Positions 8,028 to 51,675 of a stretch of 64,000 nucleotides of DNA are shown piece by piece. Source of the stretch: Qipengyuania vulgaris. GTDB taxonomy: Bacteria > Pseudomonadota > Alphaproteobacteria > Sphingomonadales > Sphingomonadaceae. Where the stretch lies: the NCBI GenBank assembly GCA_000756795.1, contig CCSI01000004.1, positions 186,001-250,000 on the forward strand, read 5' to 3'. Within the stretch, counting starts at the first letter, position 1. The number at the start of each line of letters is the position of its first letter. The notes below the pieces were generated by a model. The model made no database searches and was not told the origin of the DNA. It saw only the letters and a program-made list of their open reading frames with translations. The position numbers and the translations under genes are program-made.

Positions 8028-9536
8028 CTCAAGATAGGCCTGGTCGAAGCCGAACTGGCGCGCCTTTTCCAGCGTGTAGGGACGCAGGCCCGACGAGCGG
8101 AACTCGCCGAGGATCTTGCCGTCCTCGCTCTCGTCGAGATACTCGAACTTGAACAGGTTCTGCGTCACGATCACGTCGCCTTCCATGCCGATCACCTCGG
8201 TGATGTCGGTGGTGCGGCGCGAACCGTCGCGAAGGCGCTTCACCTGCACGATGAGGTCGACCGATTCCGCGATCTGGCGCGAAATGGCTTCCTTGGGGAT
8301 CTTGATGTCGCCCATCAGGATCATGTTTTCCATACGGCCGAGGCACTCACGCGGGCTGTTGGCGTGAAGCGTACACATCGAACCATCGTGGCCCGTGTTC
8401 ATGGCGGCGAGAAGGTCGAAACATTCCGCGCCACGAATTTCGCCCAGGATGATGCGGTCAGGACGCATACGCAGGGCGTTCTTCACGAGGTCGCCGATGG
8501 TGATGGCGCCCTGGCCTTCAAGGTTCGGCGGACGCGTTTCGAGCGGCAGCCAGTGCGGCTGCTGCAGGCGAAGTTCGGCGGCGTCCTCGATGGTGAGAAC
8601 GCGCTCGCCCGGGTCGATCATCTTCGACAGGGCGTTGAGCATGGTTGTCTTACCCGAACCCGTACCGCCCGAGATGACGATATTCATGCGGCAGGCGCCG
8701 GCAATCTTGAGCGCGGTACACATCTTCTCGCTCATCGAGCCGAAGCCCTGAAGCATGTCGAGCGTGATGGGCTTCTCGGAGAACTTACGAATCGAGATCG
8801 CGGTGCCGCGCAGCGAAAGCGGCGGCACGATGACGTTCACACGTGAGCCGTCCTTCAAGCGGGCGTCGGCCAGCGGCGTGGTCTGGTCGACACGGCGACC
8901 GACCTGGTTCACGATGCGCTGGGCAATCTGGAACAGGTGCTGTTCGTCGCGGAACCGGATCGGCGCGATGACCAGCTTACCCTTCTTTTCGACGTAGGTC
9001 TGGTCGGGGCCGTTGACCATGATATCCGAGATGTCGGGGTCGTTCAGCAGCTCTTCCAGCGGGCCGAAGCCAAGCAGTTCGTCGACAAGGACCTTCTCCA
9101 GAGCGAACTGTTCGCGGCGGTTCAGCGTGACCTTCAGTTCGGCCAGCACTTCCATGATGATCGGACGAAATTCTTCCGACAACTCGTCCTTGGTCAGCGT
9201 GGCGGCTGCTTCAGGGTCGACGCGCTCGAGCAGGCGGGGAAGCACCTGTTCCTTGATCTTGTGGACGCTGGCTTCGAAGCCGCCGACTTCCGATTCGCCC
9301 GAGTGGACCGAGTTCATGCGTTCGTCGAGACGGGCCCTCGCATCGGCGCTGGCGGCGCTACCGGGCGCAGAAGGAGCGCTGTCCTGCGGCAGGGGCGGGA
9401 ACTGTTCGCCGCCCTTTTCGGCCTTTTCTTCAGGCGCAGCCGCGTTGCCACCGCCCATAGGCCGGGCAACCCCGAACTGCGGACGAGCACCGGCACCCAT
9501 GCCAGAAGGCCCGTTTTTCCGCCCGAATGCACTCAT
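8016..9536 (-). CDS. cpaF: CpaF/TadA-type Flp pilus assembly ATPase
   Basis: A 506-residue type II/IV secretion ATPase. A flexible Gly/Ala/Pro-rich N-terminus (about residues 1-80) precedes the N-terminal domain (FGPLEELLNDPDISDIMVNG) and the RecA-like core with Walker A GGTGSGKTT (from Gly290), Walker B-region ILGEIRGAECFDLL and the His box GHDGSMCTLHANSP. These fit the CpaF/TadA subfamily, which powers Flp/tight-adherence pili at the inner membrane. No other cpa/tad gene adjoins it: upstream is an EamA transporter reading the other way, so the pilus locus must be elsewhere or only the ATPase is here. Confidence 0.9.
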   Translation of the reverse strand: MSAFGRKNGPSGMGAGARPQFGVARPMGGGNAAAPEEKAEKGGEQFPPLPQDSAPSAPGSAASADARARLDERMNSVHSGESEVGGFEASVHKIKEQVLPRLLERVDPEAAATLTKDELSEEFRPIIMEVLAELKVTLNRREQFALEKVLVDELLGFGPLEELLNDPDISDIMVNGPDQTYVEKKGKLVIAPIRFRDEQHLFQIAQRIVNQVGRRVDQTTPLADARLKDGSRVNVIVPPLSLRGTAISIRKFSEKPITLDMLQGFGSMSEKMCTALKIAGACRMNIVISGGTGSGKTTMLNALSKMIDPGERVLTIEDAAELRLQQPHWLPLETRPPNLEGQGAITIGDLVKNALRMRPDRIILGEIRGAECFDLLAAMNTGHDGSMCTLHANSPRECLGRMENMILMGDIKIPKEAISRQIAESVDLIVQVKRLRDGSRRTTDITEVIGMEGDVIVTQNLFKFEYLDESEDGKILGEFRSSGLRPYTLEKARQFGFDQAYLEACL

Positions 9537-9770
9537 TGCCTAAACCCCCGAGGTCAAATTTTCGTGACGCAATTCTCCTGCCAAGAAGACAGCGAAAAGC
9601 GCGTTTGGATGTTTGGTGAATAAGTTGGAAACCTTGATTTTTCCTTACCTGCAAATTCGCAAAGAGGCGCCCGGGCCAAATTTTCGGGAGGGGTTCCGAA
9701 CCCTGCGCTTTCCTGTATGCGACCCGCAGCGGCGCATCGTGTCGCGCCAGTCGGGAATGCTCAGCAAGAC

Positions 9771-10673
9771 ATGCAGAAAAGCGAAAGAAGCGGCATCCTC
9801 TTTGCCTTGTGCGGTTTCGCCCTGCTCAGCGTCGGGGATGCGGTGGTGAAGACGATGGCTGGCGAGTTTTCGCCGTTGGGAGCCGCCACGGTACGCTTTA
9901 TAATAGGGGCAATCGGCGTTTCCGTGCTGCTCTATCGGAAGGAGGGCCCGCGAGCTTTCCGACCCGTCTCCTACAAGCTGCAGGCGGCGCGTGGGTTCTG
10001 CTTGGCCGCTGCCTCGCTGTTCTTCTTCTCGGCCGTCTTCGTGATGCCGCTCGCCACCGTGATGGCCATCGCCTTCGTCGCGCCTGTCATCGTGGCGCTA
10101 TTGAGCGGTCCCTTGTTGGGAGAGAAGGTCCGCCCTGCGGTGTGGCTGGCATCCTTCGCCGCGCTGGTCGGCGTGGTGCTGGTCCTCAGGCCCAACCTCG
10201 GCGAGCTTGGCCTCCTGGCGCTGCTCCCCTTGGGCTCGGCGCTGTTCTTCGCGCTGATGATAATCGCCAATCGCGCCAGTGCCGGGCAGGGCAGTGCGCT
10301 CTCGATGCAGGTCTTCATGCAGGTGGGCGCCTTGCCGCTCCTCTTCATCGCGGCGATCGGCGGGCACCTGTCGGGTGCCGAGAGCCTGCGCCTCGAAATG
10401 CCCGACTGGACCGTGCTGGCCCGCTGCGCGCTCGTCGCGCTGACGGCAAGCACTGCCCACTGGCTCGCCTATATCGGCACGCAGCGCGCAGGGGCCGCGA
10501 CGATTGCCCCGACAACCTATGTGCAGATGCTGGTAGCGACTTTCATGGGCTGGTGGTGGTTCGACAACGTGCCCGATTTGCTTACGCTGGCGGGCGCAGC
10601 CATTATTATCGGGGCAGGGCTGCTGCTGTGGTGGAGCACCCCGCGGGAACCTGCGCCCCCGCGCGGCAATTGA
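9771..10673 (+). CDS. DMT superfamily (EamA) transporter
   Basis: A 300-residue protein with about ten hydrophobic segments in two repeated halves, as in EamA/RhaT-type drug/metabolite exporters. The start GILFALCGFALLSVGDAVVK and the second-half pattern (IAPTTYVQMLVATFMGWWWF) are typical. Substrate unknown. ATG 9771 is chosen because it places the first membrane helix near the N-terminus; an in-frame ATG at 9717 would add 18 residues. Neither has a strong ribosome-binding site. It lies 57 bases upstream of glmS on the same strand. Confidence 0.82.
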   Translation: MQKSERSGILFALCGFALLSVGDAVVKTMAGEFSPLGAATVRFIIGAIGVSVLLYRKEGPRAFRPVSYKLQAARGFCLAAASLFFFSAVFVMPLATVMAIAFVAPVIVALLSGPLLGEKVRPAVWLASFAALVGVVLVLRPNLGELGLLALLPLGSALFFALMIIANRASAGQGSALSMQVFMQVGALPLLFIAAIGGHLSGAESLRLEMPDWTVLARCALVALTASTAHWLAYIGTQRAGAATIAPTTYVQMLVATFMGWWWFDNVPDLLTLAGAAIIIGAGLLLWWSTPREPAPPRGN

Positions 10674-10730
10674 TTGGCAGACGGGAGGCGCTACATCGGC
10701 GCCTGACAGACATCCAAGGGGTCACCTCAT

Positions 10731-12554
10731 ATGTGCGGAATTATCGGTATCGTCGGCAAGGAACCGGTCGCAGAGCGGCTGGTCGACGGGCTCAAACGGA
10801 TGGAGTACCGCGGCTATGACAGCGCCGGCATCTGCACCATCCATGATGGAAAGCTCATTCGCCGCCGTGCCGAGGGCAAGCTCAACAACCTCGTTGCCGA
10901 ACTGGCCGAGCATCCGGCACAAGGCGAAATCGGCATCGCGCACACCCGCTGGGCTACGCATGGCGCGCCCACGGCAAACAATGCCCATCCGCATGCCACC
11001 GACAAGGTCGCCATCGTCCACAACGGCATCATCGAGAATTACAAGGAATTGCGCGCCGAGGTGAAAGCTGCGGGCCGTACGCTCGAAAGCGATACCGACA
11101 GCGAGGTCGTCGCCCACCTGCTCACCCGCCGCATCGAGAATGGCGAGACCCCGCACGAGGCAGTCGCCAACATGCTGCCGCGCCTGCGCGGTGCCTTTGC
11201 GCTGGCGATTGCCTTCAAGGACCATCCCGACATGCTCATTGGTGCGCGCCGCGGTTCGCCGCTGGTGGTGGGCTATGGCGAGGGCGAGACCTACATCGGC
11301 TCCGACGCACTGGCGCTTGCCCCGCTGACGCAGCAGATTTCCTATCTCGAAGAAGGCGACTGGGTCGAAGTGACGCGAGAGGGTGCGAAGATTTTCGACG
11401 AGGAAAATGAGGAAGTTACCCGAGAGGTGCGCACTTCGGGCGCTTCCGCTGCGGCAACCGAGAAGGGCAATTACCGCCACTATATGCAGAAGGAGATTTT
11501 CGAGCAGCCGACCGTGGTCGCGCAAACGCTCGGTTCCTACCTGCACCGCGAGAGCGTGTCGGTGGCGCTGCCGCAGTTCGATTTCGACATTTCCAGCATC
11601 AAGCGCGTCACCATCGTCGCCTGCGGGACTTCCTATTACGCGGGCATGGTCGCGAAATACTGGTTCGAGCAATTTGCGCGCGTGCCGGTCGATATCGATG
11701 TGGCATCCGAGTTCCGCTACCGCGAGCCGGTGCTGGAAGAAGGGGGCCTCGCGCTCTTCATCTCGCAAAGCGGCGAGACGGCCGATACGCTGGCCGCGCT
11801 TCGTCACTGCAAGGAAAAAGGCCAGACGATCGCGGTCGTCGTCAACGTGCCCACCAGCACCATGGCCCGCGAGGCAGACCTGCTGCTGCCGACCCATGCC
11901 GGTCCTGAAATCGGGGTTGCATCGACCAAGGCTTTCACCTGCCAGCTGGCGGTGCTTGCTGCCTTGGCCGCCCACATGGCGGTGAAGAAAGGCCTGATGA
12001 GCCGCGAAGAGGAATATGAGGTTGTTACGCACCTCCTCGAAGCGCCTGCCTGCCTTAATTCCGCGCTCGACCACGATGACGATATCGCTGCCATGGCGCA
12101 CCTCATCGCGCCCGCACGCGATGTGCTCTACCTGGGGCGCGGGCCGGACTATCCGCTCGCGCTTGAAGGCGCTCTGAAACTGAAGGAAATCAGCTATATC
12201 CACGCCGAAGGCTATGCCAGCGGCGAGATGAAGCACGGCCCCATCGCGCTTATCGACGACGATGTGCCGGTTATCGTGCTCGCACCTTCGGGTCCGCTGT
12301 TCGAGAAGAGCATTTCCAACATGGAAGAGGTCCGCGCACGCGGCGGGCAAATCGTGCTCATCTCCGACGCCGAAGGGCTGCAGGATGCGGGCGAGGGCTG
12401 TCTTGCCACTATCGAAATGCCCAAGGTCCACCCGCTCATCGCGCCGCTGGTCTATGCCATCCCGGTGCAATTGCTCGCCTATCACGTGGCCTGCGTGAAG
12501 GGCACCGATGTCGACCAGCCGCGCAATCTCGCAAAGTCGGTCACGGTGGAATAA
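10731..12554 (+). CDS. glmS: glutamine--fructose-6-phosphate aminotransferase (isomerizing)
   Basis: A 607-residue enzyme that makes glucosamine-6-phosphate, the first committed step to UDP-GlcNAc for peptidoglycan and LPS. The N-terminal nucleophile Cys2 in MCGIIGIVG, the glutaminase motifs HTRWATHGAP and HNGIIEN, and two SIS isomerase domains (CGTSYYAG, SQSGETADT, then LGRGPDYPLALEGALKLKE) are all present. The C-terminus KSVTVE is the conserved end. AAGGGG precedes the ATG. A small hairpin at 10686-10704 lies between the EamA gene and this one, but its role is unclear. The usual partner glmU is not next to it. Confidence 0.97.
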   Translation: MCGIIGIVGKEPVAERLVDGLKRMEYRGYDSAGICTIHDGKLIRRRAEGKLNNLVAELAEHPAQGEIGIAHTRWATHGAPTANNAHPHATDKVAIVHNGIIENYKELRAEVKAAGRTLESDTDSEVVAHLLTRRIENGETPHEAVANMLPRLRGAFALAIAFKDHPDMLIGARRGSPLVVGYGEGETYIGSDALALAPLTQQISYLEEGDWVEVTREGAKIFDEENEEVTREVRTSGASAAATEKGNYRHYMQKEIFEQPTVVAQTLGSYLHRESVSVALPQFDFDISSIKRVTIVACGTSYYAGMVAKYWFEQFARVPVDIDVASEFRYREPVLEEGGLALFISQSGETADTLAALRHCKEKGQTIAVVVNVPTSTMAREADLLLPTHAGPEIGVASTKAFTCQLAVLAALAAHMAVKKGLMSREEEYEVVTHLLEAPACLNSALDHDDDIAAMAHLIAPARDVLYLGRGPDYPLALEGALKLKEISYIHAEGYASGEMKHGPIALIDDDVPVIVLAPSGPLFEKSISNMEEVRARGGQIVLISDAEGLQDAGEGCLATIEMPKVHPLIAPLVYAIPVQLLAYHVACVKGTDVDQPRNLAKSVTVE

Positions 12555-26622: not shown

Positions 26623-27516
26623 ATGCCGGAGCCTTTTCACTACCGCCATTCAGGCCTGCACATTGCCTCGCAGCTGGAGCTGCCCGAGTGGGAGGCATTC
26701 GGCTGCGACAAGGGCGAACCGGATGTGCGCATCGTCCTCTCCGACGAGCCGTGTCCCGACTGCCCGACCGATGGAAGCGTGGCAGTGGACGAGACCTTGC
26801 GCTTCGCGGTCGAGGGTATCGGCGGCTGGCAGGTCGAGGGCGGCCGCACCATTCACCTCCATCCCGGCCTCACGGCGGATGTGCCCGAACTGCGCCTGTT
26901 CACGCTCGGCAGCGCATGGGGTGCACTCGGTTACCAGCGCGGCTTTGCCATGTGGCACGGCAGCGCGGTTGAAATGGACGGGCGCGTGGTTTTGTTCTGC
27001 GGCGATGCAGGGGCGGGTAAGAGCACGATGGCGGCGGCGCAATGCGCCAGCGGAGCGCGGTTAGTCGCAGACGATCTCAGCCGCATCGAGCCTTCGGCGG
27101 GCGGCGCGCTCATCCATCCCTCCAGCATGCGCATCAAGCTTTGGCGCGAGGCGTTGGAGCATTTCGGCTGGCAGGACCGCATCCTCCAGCGCGATTACTA
27201 CCGCGAGGACAAGTTTCACTGCAGCGTGCCGTCGCATCATGCGGGAGGCGAGGCGCTGCCGCTCTCGGCTGTCGTCATCCTCGCCGACGCGGAGGAAACC
27301 CGCCTAGAGCGACTGTCCGGCTCGGCCGCGTTTGAGGCGGTGATGCAGGGCACGCTCTACCGGCCCGAAATGCTCGATGCGTTGGGCGGGTGGGGCGTGC
27401 AAGGCGGACTGGCTGCCCGCGTGCTGGGCGAGGTGCCCGCATGGCGCTGGGCGCGGCCCAAATCCTTCACCTCCGCCTCGCTCGATGCACCCATGGCGAC
27501 CATCCTCGAGCTTTAG
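26623..27516 (+). CDS. HPr-kinase-like P-loop protein, stand-alone
   Basis: A 297-residue protein. Residues about 1-115 form a beta-rich N-terminal domain (FHYRHSGLHIASQLELPEW) of the type seen in proteins annotated as HPr serine kinase-like. Residues 127-135 are a Walker A loop GDAGAGKST, followed by LVADDLSRI, which matches the HPr kinase core. The canonical phosphocarrier partners are not nearby, nor are PqqD, lasso-peptide or asparagine-synthase-like genes with which such proteins often occur. Its substrate is therefore open. The ATG at 26623 is taken; a GTG at 26566 would add 19 residues. Confidence 0.72.
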   Translation: MPEPFHYRHSGLHIASQLELPEWEAFGCDKGEPDVRIVLSDEPCPDCPTDGSVAVDETLRFAVEGIGGWQVEGGRTIHLHPGLTADVPELRLFTLGSAWGALGYQRGFAMWHGSAVEMDGRVVLFCGDAGAGKSTMAAAQCASGARLVADDLSRIEPSAGGALIHPSSMRIKLWREALEHFGWQDRILQRDYYREDKFHCSVPSHHAGGEALPLSAVVILADAEETRLERLSGSAAFEAVMQGTLYRPEMLDALGGWGVQGGLAARVLGEVPAWRWARPKSFTSASLDAPMATILEL

Positions 27517-44911: not shown

Positions 44912-46717
44912 TCAGCCGTGTTTCTTCGGTCCCGGTTTGCGCTTGCCGGCGAATTTTTTGCCGCTGGGCTTGGGGCCTTTCTTGAAGTGTGCACCGGGCT
45001 TCTTGCCGCCGAAGTCTTTGCCCTTGGGTCCCTTGCCAAAGGGCTTGGGACGCACGCGCGGACCATCGTGACCGCCCTCGCGGCGGTTCTGGCGGGCCTG
45101 TACGCGCGGGCCTTCGGGTGCTTCCTCGATTAAAATGGCGTCCTGTTCGTCCTCGGATGAAGCGGTGCGGACGACGGCCTCGGCGAATTTCGGCGCGACG
45201 GCGGTGGGCACTTGGAACCAGCTTTCGAACTGACCGATGCGGATAGCGCCGATTTCGTTGCGCGTGATGTGGCCGCGGCGGCAGAGCAGCGGGAGTATCC
45301 AGCGCGGCTCGGCGTTCTGGCGGCGACCGACGCCGATCTTGAACCAGACCACGTCTTCAAAGCCCGGACGATGGCGGTCGGCCTTGGCCTTGTCGCGTGC
45401 CTCGGGCGTGTTGGGGATGAGCTCTTCGGGCGTCGGCATCTTGGCGCGGTGCGCGCGTACCAGCGAGGCGGCGATGTCTTCTGCCGAGAGCTTGTCCATC
45501 AGCTCCTTCGCCAGCTCGCGGTCATGCTGCTCGAACTCGGTTTCGGCGGTGAGCATCTCAAGCAGGCGCGAACGGTCCTGCTTGTGGATCATCTCAGGGG
45601 TAGGCGCGTCCATCCACTGCGCCTCGATCTTCGCGCCGCGCAGCATGCCTTCGACCCGGCGGCGGCGGTTGTACGGCACGATGATGGCCGCCGTGCCCTT
45701 CTTGCCCGCGCGGCCGGTGCGGCCCGAACGGTGCTGGAGCGTCTCGGCATCGCGCGGGATTTCCACGTGGATGACGAGGCTGAGCGTCGGCAAGTCGATA
45801 CCGCGCGCCGCCACGTCGGTCGCCACGCAGACACGCGCGCGCCGGTCGCGCAGCGCCTGCAGCGCCTGGTTGCGCTCGGACTGCGAATGCTCGCCCGACA
45901 GCGCCACGACGCCGAAGCCGCGCTCCTGCAGGGTGGCATGGAAACGCCGCACATTGTCGCGCGTGGCGCAGAACAGGATCGCCGTTTCCGCCTCGTGATA
46001 GCGCAGCAGGTTCACTACCGCATTCTCGATTTCGGCAGGCGACACGGTAATCGCTTGGTAACTGATATCGCCATGCCCGCGGTCCTGCCCGACGAGGCTG
46101 AGGCGCAGCGAATTGGTCTGGTACCGCTCGGCCAGCCGCTCGATCGGGCGCGGCATGGTGGCGGAGAACAGCAGCGTGCGACGGCCCTCGGGCGTCGCGT
46201 CGAGGATTTCTTCCAGATCCTCGCGAAAGCCCATGTCGAGCATTTCGTCCGCTTCATCGAGCACCACGCCAACAAGGCCGGAGAGGTCCACCGCGCCGCG
46301 TTCGAGATGGTCGCGCAGGCGCCCCGGCGTGCCGACCACGATGGCCGGTCCTGCGCGCAGCGCACGGCGTTCCTTGCTCGCATCCATCCCGCCCACGCAG
46401 GTCGCAATGCGCAGGCCCGCGCCCGCATAAAGCCAGCCGAGCTCGCGGCTGACCTGCAGCGCCAGCTCGCGCGTCGGCGCGATGACCAGCGCCAGCGGCT
46501 TGTCGATAAGCGCGACATTGCCTGTCTCGGCCAGCAGCGCCTCTGCCAGCGCGAGGCCGAAGGCGACCGTCTTGCCCGAGCCGGTCTGCGCCGACACCAC
46601 GAGGTCGCGCCCGCGCGCCTCGTCTTCGATAACGGCGGACTGGACGGGGGTGAGGTCGGTATAGCCGCGTTTGGTCAGCGCTGCGCCAATGACCGGCGGG
46701 AGGGTTTCGAAAGACAT
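44912..46717 (-). CDS. DEAD-box RNA helicase (DbpA/CsdA-like)
   Basis: A 601-residue helicase. Q motif (GYTDLTPVQSAVI), AQTGSGKT (motif I), VLDEADEMLD (II), FSATMP (III) and HRSGRTGRAGKKG (VI) are complete. After the core, a DbpA-type RNA-binding domain (about residues 430-520, VWFKIGVGRRQNAEPRWILPLL) and a Lys/Gly-rich tail follow. It probably acts in ribosome assembly or RNA turnover. ATG 46717 (MSFETLPPVIG) is chosen. It diverges from the restriction-modification gene with a 253-base spacer in which I see no other gene. Confidence 0.93.
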   Translation of the reverse strand: MSFETLPPVIGAALTKRGYTDLTPVQSAVIEDEARGRDLVVSAQTGSGKTVAFGLALAEALLAETGNVALIDKPLALVIAPTRELALQVSRELGWLYAGAGLRIATCVGGMDASKERRALRAGPAIVVGTPGRLRDHLERGAVDLSGLVGVVLDEADEMLDMGFREDLEEILDATPEGRRTLLFSATMPRPIERLAERYQTNSLRLSLVGQDRGHGDISYQAITVSPAEIENAVVNLLRYHEAETAILFCATRDNVRRFHATLQERGFGVVALSGEHSQSERNQALQALRDRRARVCVATDVAARGIDLPTLSLVIHVEIPRDAETLQHRSGRTGRAGKKGTAAIIVPYNRRRRVEGMLRGAKIEAQWMDAPTPEMIHKQDRSRLLEMLTAETEFEQHDRELAKELMDKLSAEDIAASLVRAHRAKMPTPEELIPNTPEARDKAKADRHRPGFEDVVWFKIGVGRRQNAEPRWILPLLCRRGHITRNEIGAIRIGQFESWFQVPTAVAPKFAEAVVRTASSEDEQDAILIEEAPEGPRVQARQNRREGGHDGPRVRPKPFGKGPKGKDFGGKKPGAHFKKGPKPSGKKFAGKRKPGPKKHG

Positions 46718-46970
46718 CTGTGCTCGCAATACATGAGGCGCCGCGGCGATGTGCCGCGAGAGCCGGGAAACAGGGTGCATGTGTGAAGCCGCATGGTGGC
46801 GGCGAGAGGGTCACGCGCGCCCTTGAAGGCTCCCGCGCGACCATGCTTGGGGCGCCCCCTACACGAGTTGGAGCGGTTTGGCTCGTGTTATTTTGCAGGT
46901 GCGAAATATCGACATTTGCGTGCAGCCTAGCCACTTGAAAAGAACAGGCTTCCGACGCATCACCGCATCC

Positions 46971-49541
46971 ATGGGGGAAACGAACCAAGCCGCGCTGGAA
47001 AAGCTGATTGCCGAATTCGAAGGTTCGGGCGGCTCCGAAATGGCCAATGCCCAGCTCTTTCTCGAACGCCTGACCGGCGCGCTGGGTGTGGAGCAGCCAT
47101 CGCCGGCGCAGGAAGACACACGCCATAACGACTATGTGTTCGAGCGCAGCGTCCTGTTCCGACATCCCAACGGTTCGACCACCACCGGCCGCATCGATTG
47201 CTACAAGCGCGACTGCTTCATCTGGGAAGCCAAGCAATCGGCAAAGCGCGCCAAGTCCCGAGAGACCGAACAGCTGGAACTGGTCGGAGTCGAGACCCCG
47301 CAAAAGCTCGGCCATGCCAAGCGCGGCACGAAGACCTGGGACAAGGTCATGATCGCGGCCAAGCAACAGGCAGAAGGCTATGCCCGCGCGCTGCCCGACG
47401 ATCATTCCTATCCGCCCTTCATCATGGTGGCCGATGTCGGCAATGTGATCGAAGTTTATGCCGACTTCAGCGGGCAGGGGCGCAACTACGCCCACTTCCC
47501 CGACCGCCAGAACTACCGCCTGTCGATGGCGGATTTGCTCGACTCCGAAGTGCAGGATCGCTTGCGGGCCATCTGGACCGATCCGCACAGCCTCGATCCC
47601 GCGCGCATCAGCGCCGAAGTCACCGAGGATATTGCGCAGCGTCTCGCGAAGATCGCCAAGAGCCTCGAGCGGCGATACGATCCCAAGGATATCGCCGAAT
47701 TCCTGATGCGCTGCCTCTTCACCATGTTCGCCGAGGACGTGGGGTTGATCGAGGAAACCGAGGAGGAAAAGCGTAACGGTGTCGGCCCGTTCGAGGCGAT
47801 GCTGGAACGGATGGTCGACACGCCCGACTATTTCCCCTCCGCCCTGGAAAGCCTGTGGCGCACCATGGACAAGGGCGGTTACGCGGGAGAATTCGGCAGG
47901 CCGCTGAAACGCTTCAACGGCTCGCTGTTCAAGACCCGCACCGCGCTGAAGCTGGAAGCCGACGACATTCGCGAACTTTGGCTGGCCGCGAAGAAGGACT
48001 GGCACGAGGTTGAACCCGCCATCTTCGGCACGCTTCTCGAACGCGCGCTGGCAGCGAAGGAGCGCGGCAAGCTGGGCGCGCACTTCACTCCGCGCGTCTA
48101 TGTGGAGCGGCTGGTCGTGCCCACCATCATCGAGCCGCTGCGCGAGGATTGGGCCGAGGTCCAGCAATTGGCCGAAGACCTGACCCGGGCAGGCAAGCAG
48201 GAGGCCGCGCTGGAAGCAGTGCGCGCTTTCCATCACCAGCTCTGCACCACCCGCGTGCTCGACCCGGCCTGCGGCACGGGGAACTTCCTCTATGTCAGCC
48301 TCGAACTTATGAAGCGGCTCGAAGGCGAAGTGCTCGATGCGCTGGAAGCGCTGGGGGACGACGAGGCGCGGCTGCTGCTCGACGGCGAAACGGTCAATCC
48401 GCGCCAGTTTTACGGGCTGGAAATCAACCCGCGCGCCGTGCCGATTGCCGACCTCGTGTTGTGGATCGGCTTCCTCAAATGGCAGCTGCGCACGACCGAG
48501 GCGAAGCATCTGCCCGAACCGATCCTGCACGCCTATGGCAACATCCGCCATCAGGATGCGCTGCTCGCTTATGACAGCATGGAGATGCTGCGCGACGAGG
48601 CGGGCAAACCGCTTAGCCGCTGGGACGGCGAGACGATGAAGCTGCATCCCATCACGGGCGAGGAAATTCCCGATCCCGATGCGAAAATGGAGCTCTACGA
48701 ATACGTGAACCCGCGCCGGGCCGACTGGCCGGAGGTGGAATTCATCGTCGGCAATCCGCCCTTCATCGGCGGCAAGGACATGCGCGCCGAACTGGGCGAT
48801 GGCTATGCCGAGGCCGCGTGGAAGGTGCGCAAGGATGTGCCCGGCGGCGCGGATTTCGTGATGCATTTCTGGGACGAGGCGGCGACGCGGCTCCTCGCCA
48901 AGCCGCCCAAGGGTGCCAAGGGCGAGAACCCGCTGGGCCGATTCGGTTTCATCACCACCAATTCGATTACCCAGACCTTCAGCCGCCGCGTGGTGGAGCG
49001 GCACATGAACGCCAAGCTGCCTCTAAGCCTCGTCTACGCCATTCCCGACCACCCCTGGCTCAAGGCAAGCGACAAGGCAGCCGTGCGCATCGCGATGACC
49101 GTCGCGGTGCGCGGCGAGCGGCAGGGCAAGCTAGCGGAAGTGGTGCATGAGAGCGGGTTGAACACCGACACGCCCGAGGTGCGGCTGGAAGTGGATGAGG
49201 GGAAGATTACGAGCAAGCTGACGATTGGGGCTGACGTCGCAAAGGCACGCGAACTTATTGCAAACGAATTGCTTTCAAGTCCCGGCGTTAAGTTGCACGG
49301 AGCTGGATTTATCGTAAGTCCTAGCGTCGCCGCGAACCTCGGTCTTGGACGGAAAGAGGAAGCAGACCGCACCATTTTCAAGTATGCTCACGGCCGGGAT
49401 CTTGCTCAGCGGCCTCGAGGCGTGTTGGTGATAGACGCAGAGCACTACACGAAGGATCGGCTACAATCGGAACTTCCGGAGCTCTATCAGCACCTAGTGG
49501 ACGCCGTTAAGCCAGAGCGCGACCAAAATCGTGAGGAATAA
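46971..49541 (+). CDS. N-terminal fragment of the type IIG enzyme (nuclease and methyltransferase)
   Basis: This 856-residue open segment could be translated up to the first stop. It holds the endonuclease site, the helical connector (IAEFLMRCLFTMFAEDVGL), the whole methyltransferase domain and the first part of the target-recognition domain. ATG 46971 (MGETNQAALEKLIAEFE) is chosen since it gives the family-like start; the frame is open back to an ATG at 46878. Without the rest of the recognition domain, specific DNA binding is doubtful. Confidence 0.6.
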   Translation: MGETNQAALEKLIAEFEGSGGSEMANAQLFLERLTGALGVEQPSPAQEDTRHNDYVFERSVLFRHPNGSTTTGRIDCYKRDCFIWEAKQSAKRAKSRETEQLELVGVETPQKLGHAKRGTKTWDKVMIAAKQQAEGYARALPDDHSYPPFIMVADVGNVIEVYADFSGQGRNYAHFPDRQNYRLSMADLLDSEVQDRLRAIWTDPHSLDPARISAEVTEDIAQRLAKIAKSLERRYDPKDIAEFLMRCLFTMFAEDVGLIEETEEEKRNGVGPFEAMLERMVDTPDYFPSALESLWRTMDKGGYAGEFGRPLKRFNGSLFKTRTALKLEADDIRELWLAAKKDWHEVEPAIFGTLLERALAAKERGKLGAHFTPRVYVERLVVPTIIEPLREDWAEVQQLAEDLTRAGKQEAALEAVRAFHHQLCTTRVLDPACGTGNFLYVSLELMKRLEGEVLDALEALGDDEARLLLDGETVNPRQFYGLEINPRAVPIADLVLWIGFLKWQLRTTEAKHLPEPILHAYGNIRHQDALLAYDSMEMLRDEAGKPLSRWDGETMKLHPITGEEIPDPDAKMELYEYVNPRRADWPEVEFIVGNPPFIGGKDMRAELGDGYAEAAWKVRKDVPGGADFVMHFWDEAATRLLAKPPKGAKGENPLGRFGFITTNSITQTFSRRVVERHMNAKLPLSLVYAIPDHPWLKASDKAAVRIAMTVAVRGERQGKLAEVVHESGLNTDTPEVRLEVDEGKITSKLTIGADVAKARELIANELLSSPGVKLHGAGFIVSPSVAANLGLGRKEEADRTIFKYAHGRDLAQRPRGVLVIDAEHYTKDRLQSELPELYQHLVDAVKPERDQNREE

Positions 49542-49685
49542 AGGCGAGTAAACTGGTGGAAGTTTGGCAGAAGTAACAAGGTTTATCGCGGTTTTATCGC
49601 TGACATACCCCGTTATATCTCAACGCCCGAAACTGCGAAGCATCGCTTTTTTCAGTTTCTGTCGAACGACACCCGTGCGGACAAT

Positions 49686-50483
49686 ATGCTCGTCAATGTA
49701 GGTCTCGCGAATGGAAGTAGTCTTGGTGTCCTCGCGTCTCGCATTCATTATGAGTGGGTGAAGGCAACGGCTTCCTCATTGGGAATGTATATAGGCCCAG
49801 TTCGCTGGAACAAGACGCGGTGCTTCGACCCCTTCCCCTTCCCCGTCCTAACCGACGCGCAATCCGCCAAGCTCGACCAGCTCGGCGAGCGGCTCGATGC
49901 CTTCCGCAAGGAGCGGCTGGCCGAGCACGACTTCCTCACCATGACCGACATGTACAATGTGCTCGAACGCCTGCGCGAACTCGAGCAGGGTGTCGGCGCG
50001 CCGTTCAGCCAGAAGGAGCGCGATATCCACGAGGCGGGGCTGATCTCCGTGCTCAAGGATATCCATGACGATATCGATCGCGAAGTCTTCGCCGCCTATG
50101 GCTGGGAAGACCTTGGCGAGCGGTTGGTCGGTCGCCCCGGCGCGACCACGCCCAACCCGCACAAGTCCGAGGACCAGGAAGCGGCCGAAGAGGAATTGCT
50201 GACGCGGCTGGTGGCGCTCAATCAGGAGCGCGCGGCGGAGGAAAAGCACGGCCTCGTGCGCTGGCTGCGCCCCGAATACCAGAAGCCGCGTCTCGCCCAC
50301 AAGGTGAAGGGGCAGGACGATCTCGACATCGAACTGGTCGATGCGGGCGTGGTCGAAGAACGCAGCTGGCCTGCCCAAGAGCGCGAACAATTCGCCACCA
50401 TGCGCGATGTGCTGGCCGAAGCCGAAGCTCCGCTCCCTGCGGAAGCGATCGCCGCGCTGTTCAAGGGCCGCAACACGCCTTAG
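49686..50483 (+). CDS. C-terminal fragment of the type IIG enzyme (target recognition)
   Basis: A 265-residue open segment in the same frame, from an internal ATG to the second stop. RWNKTRCFDPFPFPVLTD is the highly conserved segment at the end of the target-recognition domain, and the following coiled helices (EERLRELEQG type) are the specificity-helical region. No clear ribosome-binding site precedes the ATG, so independent translation is uncertain. It probably reflects decay rather than a true two-gene system. Confidence 0.45.
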   Translation: MLVNVGLANGSSLGVLASRIHYEWVKATASSLGMYIGPVRWNKTRCFDPFPFPVLTDAQSAKLDQLGERLDAFRKERLAEHDFLTMTDMYNVLERLRELEQGVGAPFSQKERDIHEAGLISVLKDIHDDIDREVFAAYGWEDLGERLVGRPGATTPNPHKSEDQEAAEEELLTRLVALNQERAAEEKHGLVRWLRPEYQKPRLAHKVKGQDDLDIELVDAGVVEERSWPAQEREQFATMRDVLAEAEAPLPAEAIAALFKGRNTP

Positions 50484-50760
50484 CGAAAGGCCCGTGTCGC
50501 CCGCGTGCTCGAAATCATGACCGATATGGGCGGGGCGAGGGCGGGCGAGGACGGCTACTTCCTCCCGCGCTGATGGAGTTTTCCTACTCCGCCTCCCCGC
50601 GCTAGCTTCTCACCGGCTCTTTCATACCGTCGATAAGCCCGCTGCCCGCGCGTGTCCTATGGCCCGCCCTCTGTGAGGGGGAGGGCGCATGTGTTTCGTC
50701 AACTAACCTCGCGTGTTGTTTATCTGCGCGGGGGGCGGGGTGAACGAATCGCCCGGGGCC

Positions 50761-51675
50761 TCAGCCTGCGCCGCGCTTCGCCTTTCGCACCACGCCTTCC
50801 TGCGCCACGCTGGCGACGAGCTGGCCTGCGCGGTTGTAGATGCGGCCGCGGTTGAAGCCGCGGCCTCCGCCCGACCAGGGGCTGTCGGTGGCGTAGAGGA
50901 GCCATTCGTCGGCGCGGTAGGCTTCGAGCGCGGGGCGGTGAAACCAGATGGCGTGGTCGAGGCTGGCGCCTTTCAGCTCGCCGCGGGCCCAGCTGAGGCC
51001 GTGGGGCAGGGCGCTGGTACCGAGCAGCGTGTAGTCGCTCGCATAAGCGAGCACGGCGCGGTGGAGTGCGGCGTCGTCCGGCAGCGCGGCGGCGGTGCGG
51101 AACCAGCTGTGCGCATGCGGCGGCTTTTTGTCGGCGTTCATCCAGTGGAGCTTGCCGCTGGTGCGCATCTCGATGGGGCGCGGGCGGAGCATAAGGGCGC
51201 GCTGGATGTCGGAGACCTCGCCCATCTCCGCGATGAACTTCTCCCGCATCTCCATGTCGGAGGGGAGGTCTTCGGGCGGGGGCACGTCGGGCATGGGGCT
51301 GTCGTCATGCTCCAGCCCCTGTTCGGGCCGCTGGAAGCTGGCGGTGAGGTTGAGGATGGGCTCGCCCTGCTGGCTCGCCACCACGCGGCGGTTGGCGAAG
51401 CTGCGGCCGGTGAAGTCGGCGGCGACGGCATAGTCCAAGTCCACGCCCTCGCGCCCGCCCCGCAGGAAATAGGCGTGGAGCGAGTGGGCCTCCATGCCTT
51501 CGGGCGCGCTGGCCTGTGCGGACTGGAGCGCCTGCGCGATGACCTGCCCGCCGAACACGCGGCCGATGCCGTCGGGTTGCTGGTTGCCGGAGTAGGCGTC
51601 TTCGCCAGCGGGCGTGACGGTCAGCAGGCGGACGAGGCCTTGGACGAGCTGTTCGGGGGTAGGGGTATCACTCAC
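50761..51675 (-). CDS. tesB: acyl-CoA thioesterase II
   Basis: A 304-residue double-hotdog thioesterase. RVFGGQVIAQALQSA and EAHSLHAYFLRGG in the first half, and LGTSALPHGLSW with DHAIWFHRP in the second, are TesB signatures, and the Asp/Gln/Thr active-site set is likely present. It hydrolyses medium and long acyl-CoA. The gene lies 95 bases downstream of hppA in the same direction, but a terminator separates them. Confidence 0.92.
   Translation of the reverse strand: MSDTPTPEQLVQGLVRLLTVTPAGEDAYSGNQQPDGIGRVFGGQVIAQALQSAQASAPEGMEAHSLHAYFLRGGREGVDLDYAVAADFTGRSFANRRVVASQQGEPILNLTASFQRPEQGLEHDDSPMPDVPPPEDLPSDMEMREKFIAEMGEVSDIQRALMLRPRPIEMRTSGKLHWMNADKKPPHAHSWFRTAAALPDDAALHRAVLAYASDYTLLGTSALPHGLSWARGELKGASLDHAIWFHRPALEAYRADEWLLYATDSPWSGGGRGFNRGRIYNRAGQLVASVAQEGVVRKAKRGAG

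Follow-up and report, generated by a model that had tools for sequence, protein, structure and literature searches.

The closest described relative of the gene reported here is MmeI, a Type IIL enzyme of known structure (PDB 5HR4), which was the sole sequence match among solved structures at E <= 0.001 (E = 6.3e-26, with an intact Qipengyuania vesicularis homologue, L018, as query); the domain limits used for comparison were those given in the accessible part of PMC4833311. The two share the order of nuclease, helical spacer, gamma-class methyltransferase, target-recognition domain (TRD) and C-terminal domain, whereas MmeI has 919 residues against about 1200 codons in the gene studied here, which, unlike MmeI, carries two in-frame stop codons. 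The Campylobacter jejuni gene cj0031 likewise encodes a single-chain Type IIG enzyme and can occur split into two frames, but, as far as described in the accessible part of PMC4889913, it switches by means of a polyG tract. Nearer relatives are known from genome sequences. The homologue in Q. vesicularis 1NDH10 (L018, identical with L003; genome G056) is 91% identical over codons 1-853 and 90% over the tail and follows an identical reading frame to an identical end, but it is unbroken, has another TRD and lies outside the gap between dbpA and tesB in which our gene is found. A stub in Erythrobacter sp. SS_bin_117 (L078, genome G037) adjoins dbpA and is 97% identical over its first 148 codons, whereas the remainder is missing and the stub is joined to other genes.

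The window, that is, the whole stretch of Qipengyuania vulgaris DNA that was analyzed (64,000 nucleotides), contains the following features at this locus:

46971-50573, + strand: MmeI-type gene, whole frame, from the ATG at 46971 to the TGA at 50571-50573 (codon 1201)
46971..49541, + strand: 5′ part up to stop 1, 856 codons and the TAA
49539..49541, + strand: stop 1, in-frame TAA at codon 857, inside the apparently exchanged TRD
49212..49808, + strand: apparently exchanged target-recognition segment, codons ~748-946, delimited by codon alignment, dN/dS by segment and DNA similarity
49542..50483, + strand: second half of the TRD and C-terminal domain up to stop 2, gapless against homologue L004
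50481..50483, + strand: stop 2, TAG at codon 1171, in conserved scaffold 29 codons before the usual family end
50484..50573, + strand: C-terminal tail of 29 codons, ~90% identical to L003, with the real terminal stop TGA
44912..46780, - strand: left neighbor, DbpA-like DEAD-box RNA helicase (Pfam DEAD, Helicase_C and DbpA)
50761..51675, - strand: right neighbor, TesB-like acyl-CoA thioesterase (Pfam Acyl_CoA_thio; TIGR00189 under its cut-off)
46908..50571, + strand: segment absent at the equivalent site of the nearest relative, G022 (blastn against L080)

The start codon, both internal stops and the terminal TGA all lie in a single common reading frame. Homologue L004 has exactly the same length (3603 bases including the stop) and aligns without gaps, and the sole difference in length from L003 is an in-frame 3-codon gap in the TRD. 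A first-pass annotation of the sequence had described an MmeI-like gene with two same-frame stops and no insertion or deletion across 3.6 kb, and both points were confirmed. Pfam matches on the piece up to stop 1, which comprises the nuclease, the helical spacer, the methyltransferase and the first half of the TRD, were MmeI_N, MmeI_hel and MmeI_Mtase; the second piece matched the end of MmeI_TRD under the curated cut-off (21.3 vs 27 bits), which the same domain exceeds in the intact L018 (30.1 bits), and the domain order is thus that of the Type IIL MmeI family. The annotation had also regarded the nuclease and methyltransferase sites as intact, in agreement with the presence of D...ExK at codons 73-88, DPACGxGNF at codons 431-439 and NPPF at codons 594-598, which we take to be the catalytic motifs of the two activities. 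The single uninterrupted frame of a bifunctional enzyme is broken at codons 857 and 1171, and the window gene is therefore, as judged from its sequence, a broken and presumably non-working member of this family.

The flanking scaffold (codons below ~748 and above ~946) is strongly conserved with L003, while the segment between is nearly saturated with changes. At the DNA level, similarity to L018 spans 46971 to 50571 and is interrupted in the TRD only, stopping at 49315 and restarting at 49802 save for one 50-nt match between. The TRD thus appears to have been exchanged inside a kept scaffold. Stop 1 sits mid-way through this segment, so that loss of recognition, methylation and cutting would be expected, whereas stop 2 takes off just the final 29 residues. 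A weak third stretch of alignment (17 bits) pairs L018 residues 894-968 with MmeI residues 762-836, and extrapolation from it would place stop 1 near MmeI residue 725. According to the accessible part of PMC4833311, the MmeI TRD covers residues 621-825 and the target bases are read by Glu751, Asn773, Glu806, Arg808 and Arg810; by the extrapolated placement, stop 1 precedes the equivalents of all five. Since the base-reading residues would come after stop 1, a protein ended there should not recognise its target.

We compared the two stop positions across homologues. From 77 homologous loci, 65 were retained after leaving out duplicates (L018, L019 and L078), distant relatives (L012-L017) and loci in which the junction was missing (L009, L011 and L058). 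The stop-1 column held a sense residue in every one of the 65: Ser in 21, Thr in 8, Phe in 6, Glu and Tyr in 5 each, Val and Ala in 4 each, Asp and His in 3 each, Gln and Gly in 2 each, and Trp and Met in 1 each. The expectation that the family has a Tyr near this position holds to the extent that Tyr does occur; a conserved Tyr was rejected, since the column is variable. Where the next residues are also R-R, Phe, Tyr or Val is usual at this column, and Ser or Thr is common elsewhere. Beyond the stop-2 column, 59 of the 65 homologues extend for at least 28 residues (L072 does so out of frame, for 134 residues); of the remaining six, L006, L049 and L057 run into contig ends and L008, L040 and L079 are interrupted upstream. 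Natural ends at either site, which the annotation had named as evidence that would speak against its reading, were seen in none of the 65 homologues.

The constraint on the sequence beyond stop 1 bears on the age of the loss. Against L003, dN/dS was 0.053 for codons 1-745 and 0.129 for codons 966-1200. With changes polarised by L004 and L005 and codons outside the TRD considered, the window branch had 24 non-synonymous changes among 91, and the sister branch 30 among 110. Beyond codon 946 the corresponding values were 13 of 30 and, for the intact sister gene, 11 of 27 (Fisher p = 1.0), so that after stop 1 the window gene is constrained as much as its intact sister; the neutral expectation is 74% non-synonymous (P = 0.0004 for the observed 13 of 30). 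The share of the branch that could have been neutral at the 5% level is at most ~17%, or ~18 substitutions, and the chance of at least two stops is 0.08 with 15 neutral substitutions and 0.13 with 20. Two stops without a surplus of other changes are therefore slightly above expectation for so young a pseudogene, a mildly unlucky outcome. On the window branch there was relatively more non-synonymous change after the TRD than before it (p = 0.021), and we read this weaker constraint as a property of the region because the sister branch shows a similar trend (p = 0.085). The suggestion of recent loss is thus upheld by stops that are specific to this lineage and by former constraint that is still visible.

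Taken with the intact homologues, these findings indicate that the gene is very probably a young pseudogene, an MmeI-type restriction-modification (R-M) gene recently inactivated by two point stops. A single-chain gene of this type would have been gained at the dbpA-tesB site and would have functioned for the greater part of its time in this lineage. It would then have been disabled, not long ago, by two separate point mutations, each creating a stop codon. Stop 1 would leave an 856-residue protein with half a TRD, lacking the counterparts of the MmeI residues responsible for reading target bases 3, 4 and 6. Methylation and cleavage would then be lost together, and the loss would therefore be safe for the host. 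R-M systems turn over, and relaxed or negative selection on defence may be the reason for such losses. Most likely this is ordinary defence-gene turnover, and signs of switching or of unusual decoding were not found. Recent loss shows itself here as stops within a fully kept frame. The locus gives a clear picture of a one-gene restriction system caught shortly after its loss, at a site that in relatives carries other restriction genes, stubs or next to nothing. Rapid R-M turnover is described in the accessible part of PMC4176335, with which this case agrees.

The main rival explanation is a sequencing or assembly error, in which case the organism itself would lack one or both stops. Two base errors would look just like this, giving two stops in a single gene with no further damage, but we consider this unlikely, as the genome (2.86 Mb in 11 contigs, estimated 99.99% complete) showed no other clear break among the gene models shared with the nearest relative. 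This control for stray stops used 41 non-overlapping G022 gene models, each 120 aa or longer (17,588 aa in total), because overlapping antisense ORFs, typical of GC-rich DNA, swamp stop counts. Four of the 41 showed a stop in the window copy and were sorted by inspection: in g75 and g45 the window ORF has an in-frame start downstream of the stops; g153 runs antisense to a gene with a DnaJ domain, and one of its two stops was located, at codon 2; g52 covers two window ORFs (252 aa and 366 aa), its first part being antisense to an ORF whose RNase E/G match falls narrowly short of the cut-off (25.0 vs 25.5 bits). Three further models had 78-85% coverage and were stop-free, one of them at the window edge. 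A split system, in which two separately made pieces cooperate in the manner of a separate specificity subunit, would draw on the 265-aa ORF with an ATG start that covers 49686-50483; it is scarcely credible given that the break lies inside the TRD rather than between domains, that by eye no ribosome-binding site lies ahead of the ATG at 49686, and that none of the 65 homologues breaks at the stop-1 column.

The kept frame had also prompted the ideas of an on/off change at the population level and of stop readthrough, neither of which was borne out. With the frame entirely kept, point reversal from an off state is conceivable, and Campylobacter offers an example of a phase-variable Type IIG gene (accessible part of PMC4889913); that gene, however, switches by its polyG tract, and here both separate stops would need to change. 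The window gene contains no repeat tract (the longest homopolymer is 6 nt, and 4 nt near the stops), no strong tandem or inverted repeats were found, and the genome holds a single copy of the gene with no second one to recombine with. Switching by slippage or recombination was thus rejected, and a reverting off state of any kind is very improbable. Readthrough or recoding, yielding a low level of full-length enzyme, would accord with a frame that is open and a sequence that is conserved beyond both stops, but such constraint is expected equally from recent loss; two different stop codons are involved, stop 1 is shared by none of the 65 homologues, and stop 2 is absent from all homologues with an intact 3′ end. 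All 46 places (45 loci) with Rfam tRNA matches in the genome were run through ARAGORN, which gave no CTA, TTA or TCA anticodon; a suppressor tRNA was rejected on these grounds, and readthrough is more improbable still than an on/off change. A related possibility is that infrequent reversion or readthrough supplies a small number of cells with active enzyme that has a newly exchanged TRD. The kept frame and the lack of excess change past the stops are compatible with it, but it too is very improbable; if true, the population would hedge between defence and openness to foreign DNA. The findings speak against switching and readthrough without being exhaustive, and a young pseudogene is the reading that we prefer. 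Within the window, ARAGORN also reported a tRNA-Gln (ttg) of 95 nt at 27298-27392, outside the list of 46 Rfam matches, which is possibly a false call.

We also investigated how the dbpA-tesB site varies among genomes. The window genome groups with 59 genomes of its genus. The flanks of G022, the nearest relative as judged by both neighbor genes, match the window as far as position 46907 on the left and from position 50572 onward on the right. Of 60 genomes, 46 could be measured, having dbpA-like and tesB-like matches on one contig and no more than 40 kb apart; the other 14 comprised 4 without one of the matches, 6 with matches on different contigs and 4 with matches far apart. The distance between the matches was 115-291 bp in 16 of the 46 and 2.1 to 33.8 kb in the remaining 30, the window genome included; these sizes come from match coordinates, and 3 of the 16 short-gap sites were retrieved as sequence. 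Among 12 retrieved dbpA-tesB sites, no pieces of the window gene were found except in G037, where the 148-codon stub is followed by a glutathionylspermidine-synthase gene and then a DUF1190 gene; this is a metagenome assembly, and a wrong join may be the origin of the stub. Similar synthase reading frames were seen by eye at the site in G058, G013 and G059. In the G022 gap (L080:798-3517) lie Vsr, a C5 cytosine methylase and an ORF of 285 aa that matches no Pfam family; this ORF may be the matching nuclease. In G056, which has the closest intact homologue, the gene lies elsewhere in the genome and the dbpA-tesB gap is 165 bp. The varying content thus marks the gap as a probable turnover hotspot. 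A phage or plasmid origin for the window gene was rejected, since no DNA match to it was found among phages, and the relatives encoded on 56 plasmid records are all < 60% identical.

Broken copies recur elsewhere in the family. After 10 loci cut by contig ends (L019, L049, L057, L058, L059, L065, L067, L069, L076 and L077) had been set aside from the 62 homologous loci in this count, 8 of the 52 left were broken, each at a different place. A single stop is the sole damage in L021 (TAG) and L047 (TGA), L040 has both a TGA and an insertion, L050, L072, L074 and L079 carry frame changes, and L078 is truncated; L008 (G057), from the genus search, is also frame-changed. The two stop-only cases are both isolates, and each is otherwise open: Pontixanthobacter sp. 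CEM42 (L021) has its single in-frame TAG at codon ~112 and Rhodovibrio sodomensis (L047) its single in-frame TGA at codon ~364. Stop-only breaks thus recur without a common site, as decay predicts.

The insertion in the Ahrensia homologue (L040:7788-10273) measures 2.7 kb, lies in the TRD and contains, by eye, a transposase-like ORF (9014-9907) and a DUF4065/SocA-like ORF; the TGA of this homologue falls five codons beyond the window stop-1 column. Finally, the linker between the TRD and the C-terminal domain of some homologues contains an extra in-frame, GC-rich and strongly self-complementary stretch (L045:8016-8243; L040 ~10709-10834; L067 ~2381-2533; L070 ~8108-8158), with a predicted -153 kcal/mol over 228 nt in L045. 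It resembles a palindromic repeat element that has inserted in frame at roughly the same position, and the linkers of L074 and L049 also appear longer by eye.
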